DNA of 64,000 bases from contig CASDXP010000001.1 in the NCBI GenBank assembly GCA_949285455.1, positions 124,001 to 188,000 of the forward strand, written 5' to 3'. This document shows positions 7,146-56,740 of the stretch, in pieces. The number at the start of each line of letters is the position of its first letter. The stretch's first letter is position 1. Source of the stretch: an uncultured bacterium (GTDB lineage Bacteria > Bacillota_I > Bacilli_A > RFN20 > CAG-826). The notes beneath the pieces are model-generated. The model did not search any database. It saw nothing but the letters and a program-made list of their open reading frames with translations, and was not told the DNA's origin. Both the position numbers and the translations under genes were made by a program.

Positions 7146-7801
7146 GAGAAAATTTCTTCTAATTCTTTGAATAAATTATCGCTTGCGAAGAACATAATTC
7201 TATCGCCAGGATAAATCATCGTTTGACCATTCGGGACAATTAAATCTTCCCCATGATAAATTGCGATCATCAAAGCGGACTTCGGTAGATGGAGTTCGCT
7301 TACTTTTTTACCTACAGCGTGGCTTCCTTCATTCGCCACTAATTGGACGATTGAATGTCCACCTTTGGAAAGTTTTAACAAAGTTAAGAATGAACGCATG
7401 CTCATCTCTTCCACTACTAGGTGACCGATGATATCAGCTTGGTTGATAGAAGCATCCACGCCCATACCAAAATTGAAAAGCCAGGCGTTGTTAGGATTGT
7501 TGACACGTGCGATGACTCTAGGCGCTTGAAATTCAAATTTAGCGATCATCGAACAGACTAAATTTGTTTCATCATGTCCCGTCACGCAAGCGACGACATC
7601 AGCCTTATCGATATTGACTGTCGCTAAGACGTTAGGATCGCTCGCATCGCCATATAAGACATGTTCCTCACCAAATTTTTTCATCAAATTAGAAATGTGC
7701 GATTGATTGAAATCGATGACCATGAAGTCACAATCATTTTTCTTTAAGAGGTCGGCCATGTAAGTACCGATTTGTCCACCACCAATAATTAATGCATACA
7801 T
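7142..7801 (-). CDS. TrkA/KtrA-type RCK protein (second copy)
   Basis: The 219-residue protein has a Rossmann-type RCK_N domain starting MYALIIGGGQIGTYMADLL, an acidic end of strand beta-2 (VIDFN) and YGDASDP, followed by a TrkA_C (RCK_C) domain from about residue 135. Such proteins sit on the cytosolic face of K+ transporters or channels and bind nucleotides; in KtrA relatives the RCK_C domain binds c-di-AMP. Only 15 bases separate it from the upstream paralogue, so they are co-transcribed. No TrkH/KtrB pore gene is nearby. Confidence 0.92.
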   Translation of the reverse strand: MYALIIGGGQIGTYMADLLKKNDCDFMVIDFNQSHISNLMKKFGEEHVLYGDASDPNVLATVNIDKADVVACVTGHDETNLVCSMIAKFEFQAPRVIARVNNPNNAWLFNFGMGVDASINQADIIGHLVVEEMSMRSFLTLLKLSKGGHSIVQLVANEGSHAVGKKVSELHLPKSALMIAIYHGEDLIVPNGQTMIYPGDRIMFFASDNLFKELEEIFS

Positions 7802-7816
7802 AATTATTCTTCCCTC

Positions 7817-8467
7817 CTAAATGCCTAAAATATTTTTCAAAGTGCGTTTCGCTGAAGTACGAGTGACAAGGTAAAGAATATCACCCGTTTGAATGACATC
7901 TTCTTTCTTTGGGATGAAAGAAGTATCATCTCTTACAATCGCGATGACTTTGATATTTTGTTCTTCTTCAATTTCTTCTAATATCATACCTTCGACGCTC
8001 GGTGTCGCGGTGATACGAACGATTTCTGTCGAAGCATCGCGACCTAGTAAGGCTAAAGAATCGAAAGTATTAAATGAGACGAGTTCGATTGCCCTATCGA
8101 CAGCGAAACCAGTAACGGAAATTGTCCTTATACCTAACGCTTCAAAAATCTTTGCTTTCCTAGGGTTATAAATACGCGCGATGACATGTTTTACATAGTA
8201 GATGTCTTTAGCAATCTTTGCCATCACACTATTAATTTCATCGCTTCCCGTCGCGGCGACGAAGATATCCGTATATTCAATTTCTGCCTCTTCTAAAATA
8301 TCTTTATCCATCCCATTTCCGACGATTTGGGTGCCGTTAAAATCCGCGCCTAAATCGTAAAATTTATCGGGTGATAAATCGATGATGGTAATCGTATGGC
8401 CGCGCCTATAAAGTTCAAGCGCTAAAGCGGAACCAAATTTTCCTGAACCGACGATGAGTACTTTCAT
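7817..8467 (-). CDS. TrkA/KtrA-type RCK protein (first copy)
   Basis: The 216-residue protein starts MKVLIVGSGKFGSALALEL, a GxGxxG-like nucleotide site, with FVAATGSDEINSV in the RCK_N domain and a TrkA_C domain in the last 75 residues ending near TGDILYLVTRT. It is a paralogue of the following gene, so the pair may form a mixed gating ring. It lies 4 bases after the P-type ATPase stop, which places ATPase, RCK and RCK in one operon for cation homeostasis. Confidence 0.92.
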   Translation of the reverse strand: MKVLIVGSGKFGSALALELYRRGHTITIIDLSPDKFYDLGADFNGTQIVGNGMDKDILEEAEIEYTDIFVAATGSDEINSVMAKIAKDIYYVKHVIARIYNPRKAKIFEALGIRTISVTGFAVDRAIELVSFNTFDSLALLGRDASTEIVRITATPSVEGMILEEIEEEQNIKVIAIVRDDTSFIPKKEDVIQTGDILYLVTRTSAKRTLKNILGI

Positions 8468-8471
8468 AAAA

Positions 8472-55678: not shown

Positions 55679-56620
55679 ATGCCAAACTTTCACTTTTATA
55701 CATTAAAACCTAAACCATATAACGCTATGGAAAAAGGTTATAAAACAATCGAGATGCGTTTAAATGATGAAAGACGCCAATTGTTAGAGATTGGTGATTT
55801 CATCATCTTTACTAATACGGAAGATAAAAACAAATCATTATTAACAGTAATTAAAGATTTAAAACAATACCCTAGTTTTAAAGAATTATATGAAGATACA
55901 CCTAATAAACTAGACTTAGGTTATTTAGAAAATGAAGTTTCTAGCTATGAAGATATGTACGAATATTATTCGAAAGAAAAGATTGATAAGTATCACGCTT
56001 TAGCAATCTACCTTAATCATATCCACTTCTTTAAAGTTAATGATAAAAATCATGCGGATTATAACGATTTACAAGAAATATTAGGTTTCGATTATTCAGA
56101 TAATCATTTAATCATTAAAAACTACAACTATTTAGACTGCGATGAAGAATATAAATTAAGTCTTGATGAATTTATTAAACTTTATAAAAAGATTGCTCTA
56201 ATAAGTGAAAATGACGCCAAAAGTGAAATAAAAGAAAAAGAAGAAAGCTTTAATAAATCATTAGAAGAAATTACTAATTGGATCGAAAAAGAAAAACAAC
56301 TATTAGAAAATCAAAAATATCTTCATTTTGAATCTTTAAATAGTCCTTTTAAAAAGAATCAGGAAGTAAAGATGAAAAAGAAAGTCGATGTTGCCAAAAA
56401 AGACGATATATTTTTCTTAGATGATGTCATGTTAAAAGATAATATTTTATATTATTCGTTAAAAGTAGTGAGTGATAAAAAGAATCGAGGCATATATATC
56501 TTAGGCACAGATTATTTATATACTTCAAATGATTTTGAAATCGTCGAAAATAAATTCATTAGAGATGAATATTATGTAGGTAAAATAATCACTAATAAAG
56601 ATATTGAGATTTATAAATAA
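55679..56620 (+). CDS. ASCH-domain protein with long C-terminal extension
   Basis: Residues 1-110 form an ASCH domain: LKPKPYNAMEKGYKTIEMRL with the conserved Lys, then LEIGDFIIFTN. ASCH domains relate to PUA folds and bind or modify RNA; some hydrolyse modified nucleosides. The remaining 200 residues hold a charged coiled coil (about 185-215) and a beta-rich end (SLKVVSDKKNRGIYILGTDY). The fusion is not one I know. It follows the WYL-like gene by 20 bases and a small RNA gene lies just downstream on the other strand. Confidence 0.72.
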   Translation: MPNFHFYTLKPKPYNAMEKGYKTIEMRLNDERRQLLEIGDFIIFTNTEDKNKSLLTVIKDLKQYPSFKELYEDTPNKLDLGYLENEVSSYEDMYEYYSKEKIDKYHALAIYLNHIHFFKVNDKNHADYNDLQEILGFDYSDNHLIIKNYNYLDCDEEYKLSLDEFIKLYKKIALISENDAKSEIKEKEESFNKSLEEITNWIEKEKQLLENQKYLHFESLNSPFKKNQEVKMKKKVDVAKKDDIFFLDDVMLKDNILYYSLKVVSDKKNRGIYILGTDYLYTSNDFEIVENKFIRDEYYVGKIITNKDIEIYK

Positions 56621-56634
56621 ATTCGATTAAGTTT

Positions 56635-56731
56635 AAAAAAAGACGTTTTTAGGTGCGTCACCACCGCGCGAATAGGTTTTAGGTCTCTAGTCCGACCACT
56701 CTTGGGATTTTTAACGTCTATCCCTGACACC
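56635..56731 (-). ncRNA. Compact pseudoknotted small RNA with own promoter and terminator
   Basis: On the reverse strand a -10 box TACAAT (56740-56735) precedes a roughly 97-base RNA that begins GGTGTCA and ends in seven Ts. Helix 1 pairs GGTGTCA with TGACGCACC, leaving a GC bulge. Helix 2 is GGGAT/ATCCC, and its loop carries AGACGTT. That loop pairs exactly with the AACGTCT just before the T run, a 7-bp pseudoknot. A further hairpin is GGTC/GACC around GGACTAGA. No open reading frame fits. I cannot match it to SRP, 6S, tmRNA or a riboswitch I know. Confidence 0.6.
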
Positions 56732-56734
56732 ATC

Positions 56735-56740
56735 ATTGTA
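56735..56740 (-). promoter_or_regulatory. -10 box of the small RNA
   Basis: TACAAT on the reverse strand predicts a start at 56728-56731, exactly at the first helix of the RNA. A TTGATT-like -35 lies about 15 bases upstream. Confidence 0.45.

Follow-up and report, generated by a model that had tools for sequence, protein, structure and literature searches.

A tandem-pseudoknot RNA of an uncultured bacterium is a likely antitoxin of a type III-like module with a PBECR4-family predicted nuclease

The minus strand of the window (the whole stretch of 64,000 nucleotides analyzed here) carries a small RNA composed of three tandem H-type pseudoknots. We consider it very likely that this RNA acts as the antitoxin to a PBECR4-family predicted nuclease and that the two form a type III-like toxin-antitoxin module. 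The RNA-PBECR4 family looks undescribed, and in the window the toxin appears to have been lost and the RNA orphaned. Comparisons of sequences establish the anatomy of the locus, the linkage between RNA and PBECR4 genes, the covariation of the helices, the loss of the toxin gene and the presence of phage copies. The features of the locus are as follows.

56743-56735, minus strand: extended -10 promoter element TGA-TACAAT, identified by sequence (counterpart in the same-genus genome G003, TGA-TATAAT)
56635..56729, minus strand: antitoxin-like RNA, three tandem H-type pseudoknots (covariance model R1 and covariation)
56704..56729, minus strand: unit 1, H-type pseudoknot
56729-56726 (TGTC) with 56718-56715 (GACG), minus strand: unit 1 helix S1, both-side changes in 3/4 pairs
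56724-56720 (GGGAT) with 56708-56704 (ATCCC), minus strand: unit 1 helix S2, both-side changes in 4/5 pairs
56670..56697, minus strand: unit 2, H-type pseudoknot with loop TAAAAC
56697-56694 (GGTC) with 56685-56682 (GACC), minus strand: unit 2 helix S1, both-side changes in 2/4 pairs
56692-56687 (GACTAG) with 56675-56670 (CTATTC), minus strand: unit 2 helix S2, both-side changes in 4/6 pairs
56642..56665, minus strand: unit 3, H-type pseudoknot with loop TAAAAA
56665-56662 (GGTG) with 56655-56652 (CACC), minus strand: unit 3 helix S1, both-side changes in 1/4 pairs
56659-56656 (GACG) with 56645-56642 (CGTC), minus strand: unit 3 helix S2, both-side changes in 2/4 pairs
56641-56635, minus strand: T-run end of seven T, terminator-like, also the junction of the toxin-gene gap
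55679..56620, plus strand: convergent ASCH-domain gene (Pfam ASCH, E = 6.3e-5), now adjoining the RNA

The both-side changes of each helix were counted over 27 distinct homologues. Helix S2 of unit 2 contains a C-U mismatch in the window (56690/56672), and S2 of unit 3 is paired in 100% of cells of the homologue alignment. The match of covariance model R1 spans 56631-56733 (110.3 bits), the 5' start of the RNA would lie 6-8 nt past the -10 box, and the coordinates are compatible with a single RNA of ~95 nt. At the RNA locus, no sigma-70 promoter of two hexamers with a spacing of 16-18 nt was found, no -35 element being seen at that distance. Much of this agrees with the original prediction, which had read from the letters an RNA of ~97 bases with a -10 box, a GGGAT/ATCCC helix and a T-run end in a GC-rich patch of AT-rich DNA. 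The -10 box is present in extended form, the helix corresponds to S2 of unit 1, and the G+C content is 47% at 56640-56739 compared with ~20-25% on either side. Further support for a small structured RNA that has a -10 box of its own and ends in a T-run comes from the covariance-model matches described below. The proposed length roughly agrees with the coordinates, and the pseudoknotted nature of the RNA is also supported, although the conserved pairings differ from those that had been proposed. An Rfam scan, one of the checks attached to that prediction, found no family reaching its gathering score anywhere in the window, and single-sequence folding of both strands was no better than that of shuffles (z = +0.23 and +0.44). 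The original prediction had no means of seeing the tandem repeats, the toxin gene that relatives carry or its loss from the window.

We searched 196 genomes of the family at the DNA level and obtained copies with 81-96% identity, mostly from other genera. From 13 of them we built model R1; a search of the 196 genomes with it gave 42 copies at E ≤ 1e-4, spread over 34 genomes and including the relatives used for the model. Two of the four genus genomes searched (G001 and G002) had no RNA copy, and the distribution is thus patchy. In the comparison with G003, 1/90 columns of the RNA differed, versus 50/355 columns of the upstream DNA (Fisher P = 1.3e-4); this conservation and the 42 covariance-model copies indicate that the RNA is more than a chance structure. 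In 10 of the 42 loci, the RNA lies ≤260 nt downstream of a same-strand tRNA gene, a possible integration site.

To assess covariation we used alignment A4, which holds 28 chosen non-duplicate sources (R1, E ≤ 1e-8) out of the 42 RNAs; both the 28 and the 42 rows include close relatives and MAG assemblies, and their counts are not independent. Three successive H-type pseudoknots were paired in 88.6% of cells of A4, compared with 37-44% for slid versions of the structure. Both-side changes were observed in 16/27 pairs (82 such cells; 0/500 shuffles reached either value), counts that lean to S2 because R1, built from sequences including orphans, holds the S2 helices in its structure and not the S1 helices. 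A sequence-only MAFFT alignment of 13 rows was 91.3% paired, with 24 compensatory cells (0/500 shuffles) and 8 pairs with both-side changes, the last value not being exceptional (58/500 shuffles). Covariation was seen in all three units and in both helices of each pseudoknot. The relatives carry 2-4 tandem H-type pseudoknots (three in the window), each with an A-rich crossing loop (TAAAA).

Directly after the T-run of the RNA, G003 has a same-strand gene of 169-170 aa. The ORF adjoining the RNA in relatives encodes PBECR4 (PF18813; Pfam E = 1e-13, 8.4e-19 and 7.3e-19 for three proteins), and the G003 protein passes the PF18813 gathering score (52.5 bits versus 27). When three toxin proteins were scanned against Pfam at E ≤ 1, PBECR4 was found and no ToxN-type family. 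The parts of PMC5512222 available to us describe PBECR domains as predicted metal-independent RNases of the barnase/EndoU/colicin/RelE fold; the available passages of PMC9403866 concern PBECR3. A structure model of PBECR4 (pLDDT 95.6) gave no Foldseek match at E ≤ 0.001, and its best VIA-align score (Z = 3.6) was to an unrelated protein, with RelE-type toxins and no ToxN among the weak rows; a sequence search against solved structures returned nothing useful. An invariant NFLHLTG motif and a conserved late-strand Thr could fit the His plus Ser/Thr active site reported for BECR RNases. PADLOC gave a single match that is not credible (E = 0.01), NCBIfam gave none, and PHROGs gave families of unknown function (best E = 9e-4). 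In the incomplete part of the literature that was covered, nothing was found under the names PBECR4 or GP20-b.

The linkage was also evident when the protein was taken as the starting point. PF18813 had 28 matches in 22 of the 196 family genomes, a number in which one gene split into two fragments (G052:C18) accounts for two rows and which includes one contig-edge copy. In 23 of the 28, R1 (E < 1e-3) immediately preceded the gene in the same orientation. The distance from the end of the R1 match to the PBECR4 start codon was usually 0-20 nt (87 nt in L049). A T-run of at least five was present in all 15 loci with a full-length toxin, while a classical hairpin ahead of the T-run was not general. 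Among the five matches without R1 at E < 1e-3, L071 had R1 at E = 0.15, L072 lies at a contig edge, and the other three (L065, L070 and L073) are preceded by an RNA of another kind; there is therefore no one-to-one correspondence between toxin family and RNA type. Aligned across L065 (1285-1470), L070 (2125-2330) and L073 (2078-2250), this other RNA is a conserved structured element of ~150-180 nt before another PBECR4 clade; L073 has a weak drum match (31.9 bits).

The toxin gene is missing from the window. When the window was aligned with G003, the flanks showed 85-90% identity and were interrupted by a 792-bp gap with ends in T-runs; the absent segment carries the PBECR4 gene, which in G003 sits between the RNA and the ASCH-domain gene. 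No PBECR4 match was found in the whole genome that contains the window (G000), and one of the four genus genomes searched, G003, still has the toxin. Since linked RNA-PBECR4 pairs are common in other genera, we infer a deletion in the window lineage. Solitary RNAs are frequent: downstream of the 42 RNAs we found full-length PBECR4 in 15 cases, a broken full-length gene in 2, a truncated gene in 7 and none detected in 18, of which 2 have little downstream sequence (contig ends). The toxin-less RNAs fit the model as well as those linked to a toxin (bits, P = 0.55), carry 1.83 units on average versus 1.87, and have kept their units in 17/18 and their T-runs in 16/18 cases; a -10 box by a permissive pattern was present in 12/18, versus 14/15 of those with a full-length toxin. 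This intactness argues for a function in trans, and a common RNA without toxin is what would be expected if the RNA protects. In the other direction, none of the 28 protein-first PBECR4 matches is shown without a structured RNA upstream, L072 being at a contig edge. This asymmetry is no more than suggestive, since the RNA was what first delimited the PBECR4 genes of its class.

These solitary copies bear on the alternatives. The RNA might be a cis-acting leader or attenuator, whose pseudoknots control only the transcription or translation of the downstream PBECR4 gene; its location immediately ahead of the start codon, from which a T-run separates it, would suit such a role, as would the related-looking GP20-b RNAs that stand at phage scaffold gene starts as cis elements. 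We nevertheless regard this as improbable, given that 18 of the 42 RNAs have no toxin detected downstream and are equally intact, that the window RNA is constrained despite its solitude (the 1/90 versus 50/355 differences noted above), and that no toxin gene was detected close to the phage copies. The two copies of G007, one with no toxin and one with a short remnant, differ by compensatory changes (GAATAG/CTATTC in L038 and GAACAG/CTGTTC in L039). A more serious possibility, though one we lean against, applies to the window copy alone: it may be a relic that was orphaned recently and no longer functions. The clean 792-bp gap could be recent, G003 still keeps the toxin, and the junction could alternatively be produced by MAG assembly or strain mixing; the same low divergence of the RNA relative to its upstream DNA and the many solitary copies with intact pseudoknots across genera speak against a relic.

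The original prediction had explained the RNA differently, as a switch in which the tail pairs with the loop of the GGGAT/ATCCC helix and toggles termination. The exact 7-bp complement AGACGTT/AACGTCT does exist in the window and in G003, but it is exact in only 2 of 28 homologues, 0/7 of its pairs show compensatory changes, with no gain over shuffles, and its bases serve in two covarying pseudoknots. Covariation was thus confirmed for the three H-type pseudoknots and not for the loop-to-tail pairing; nothing supports switching between terminated and open states by this unconserved helix, and we consider it extremely improbable. In the antitoxin reading, which we retain, the window RNA has possibly been kept as protection.

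On that antitoxin reading, most transcripts would end at the T-run, leaving the RNA in excess, and its pseudoknot units would bind PBECR4 and block the RNase site, while read-through would yield a little toxin. If RNA synthesis failed, as in phage shut-off, the RNA would decay and the nuclease would act. In the window, where the toxin appears to be deleted, the solitary antitoxin could still neutralize incoming toxins of the same specificity.

When genome contigs were scanned with a PBECR4 alignment, 46 loci were obtained, which by record titles belong to Bacilli/Erysipelotrichaceae, Lachnospiraceae, Clostridia, Granulicatella, Peptoniphilus, Anaerotignum, Treponema and other spirochaetes. Many of the upstream regions contain repeats of a common plan (S1, S2, S1', A-rich loop, S2'). 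We compared 58 PBECR4 upstream regions with those of 148 control ORFs using an H-pseudoknot scanner, which is tuned to the class A plan, as it was written after the class A repeats had been seen, and was applied identically to the controls. At least one unit was found in 55/58 PBECR4 upstreams versus 50/148 controls (Fisher P = 5e-17), and at least two units in 35/58 versus 5/148 (Fisher P = 7e-19). The mean number of units was 1.83 in PBECR4 upstreams, 0.28 in shuffled sequences and 0.39 in control upstreams, and unit number varies between loci, as in repeat antitoxins. The 58 regions derive from 88 domain hits, from which we removed duplicates, hits that began beyond position 40 of the profile and hits with <150 nt of upstream sequence; they still hold a few repeats of the same gene in two frames or loci (L069 twice). 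One of the three upstreams without a unit (L167, genome G371) has a drum RNA instead.

Copies of the unit were also found in viral contigs, five with a 27-base unit pattern and seven in all when a looser pattern was added. One contig (L195) carries a complete module, with the RNA match at 7749-7846 and PBECR4 at 7916-8470, and the other six have one or two units and no PBECR4 detected in the 10-15 kb examined per contig. According to ARAGORN, the unit lies in or beside a same-strand tRNA cluster in L190, L191, L192, L194 and L196, with the unit of L192 separated from its neighbors by 5-7 nt on each side and that of L194 by ~5 nt on one side; in L193 it lies between protein genes. The S2 sequences of the six units of L190-L194 differ, and each pairs at 5 or all of its 6 positions. 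Viral identity is supported by phage proteins for L190, L192, L193, L195 and L196, and by the IMG/VR label only for L191 and L194. Exact-pattern viral scans with the window sequence and the unit 3 pattern found nothing, nor were there matches when two phage units were compared with named phages by blastn. The PBECR4 protein alignment, used to scan viral sequences, gave one locus (L122). PBECR4 of the class A type was absent from the phage and plasmid records searched, and the clostridial and Lachnospiraceae types were absent from the plasmid records searched. The clostridial type occurred in four phage records, with PBECR4 confirmed by HMM in the three examined; by eye, similar repeats stand upstream of PBECR4 in L182 and L184, and none were recognized in L183. 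In L182 (Erysipelothrix phage phi1605), the PBECR4 relative and its repeats are located between type III restriction and site-specific recombinase genes.

A broader reading, about evenly balanced in our judgment, is that PBECR4 proteins are widespread anti-phage toxins kept in check by pseudoknot RNAs (those of the repeat classes and drum), and that phages counter them with single antitoxin pseudoknots inside tRNA clusters, from which tRNA processing would release them; the toxin target hinted at would be tRNA or translation, and solitary bacterial copies would act alike. If the antitoxin reading holds, type III-like systems would gain a toxin family outside ToxN across Bacillota and Spirochaetes, stand-alone PBECR4 proteins would acquire a candidate role, a function would be suggested for the orphan Rfam family drum, and natural phage-borne RNA antidotes would be indicated.

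Another known RNA family, drum (RF02958, annotated as sRNA), also occurs next to PBECR4 genes. We scanned 295 genomes and then a partly overlapping set of 395, each time with two above-cutoff matches, and both (L185 184-295 and L186 1501-1606; genomes G432 and G371) lie directly upstream of PBECR4. Two weaker matches (L187, and L188 near a contig end) had no PBECR4 by HMM. The window gave no drum match, and the architecture of its RNA is different. At L104, positions 12-68 of the minus strand match the pemK RNA (RF02913; 36 bits versus a gathering score of 34.8).

GP20-b (RF03003) resembles the RNA in its pseudoknot-like units with CCUAAAAA loops. The window RNA fell below its gathering score (22.6 bits, E = 0.011, versus 36.2), and seven GP20-b matches were obtained in 295 genomes, the window itself included. 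GP20-b was rejected as the same system, as it mostly stands before phage scaffold genes beside head genes and not before PBECR4. At L130 (6142-6203), L131, L133 and L135, it is flanked within prophage head modules by a MuF/minor-capsid gene on one side and a scaffold gene, or a gene in the scaffold position, on the other, with RNAs that resemble TAAAA pseudoknot units, and at L132 it precedes a scaffold-like gene. At L134 (149-206, genome G434), the match corresponds to a class A RNA of 2-3 units that stands alone ahead of a gene resembling RNase Z; elsewhere, the G434 genome has two PBECR4 matches. The scaffold gene of L130 was named by Pfam, and the other scaffold and RNase Z names come from reading the translations. 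Pfam found no PBECR4 in four head proteins near GP20-b, and PBECR2 at E = 0.015 in one.

Described systems offer partial parallels, as far as the available parts of their reports go. AvcID (PMC10511110) and AbiF (PMC12373285) likewise combine an RNA antitoxin or regulatory ncRNA with a non-ToxN toxin, which is a deaminase in the former and an Abi_2 protein in the latter. The pseudo-ToxI of phage phiTE (PMC3475682) is a phage copy of a bacterial RNA antitoxin repeat that can suppress the toxin, whereas the viral copies here have one or two units, are located in or beside tRNA clusters in five of six contigs and are candidates for a similar function. Close counterparts are ToxIN, CptIN and TenpIN, in which, by the available parts of PMC5086642, an RNA of tandem H-pseudoknot repeats lies just upstream of an endoRNase toxin with a terminator between. 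Here, too, an RNA gene is directly upstream of the toxin on the same strand (23/28, the toxin of the window being gone), and its tandem repeats are each a pseudoknot, as indicated by covariation and the controlled unit scan. The toxin differs, being PBECR4, whose nuclease activity is predicted, rather than a member of the MazF-like ToxN/CptN/TenpN families; no resemblance between the repeats was noted, and here a separate terminator hairpin is often missing, with the last pseudoknot abutting the T-run. The shared gene order and tandem pseudoknots, together with a toxin outside the ToxN family, are why we classify the module as type III-like.
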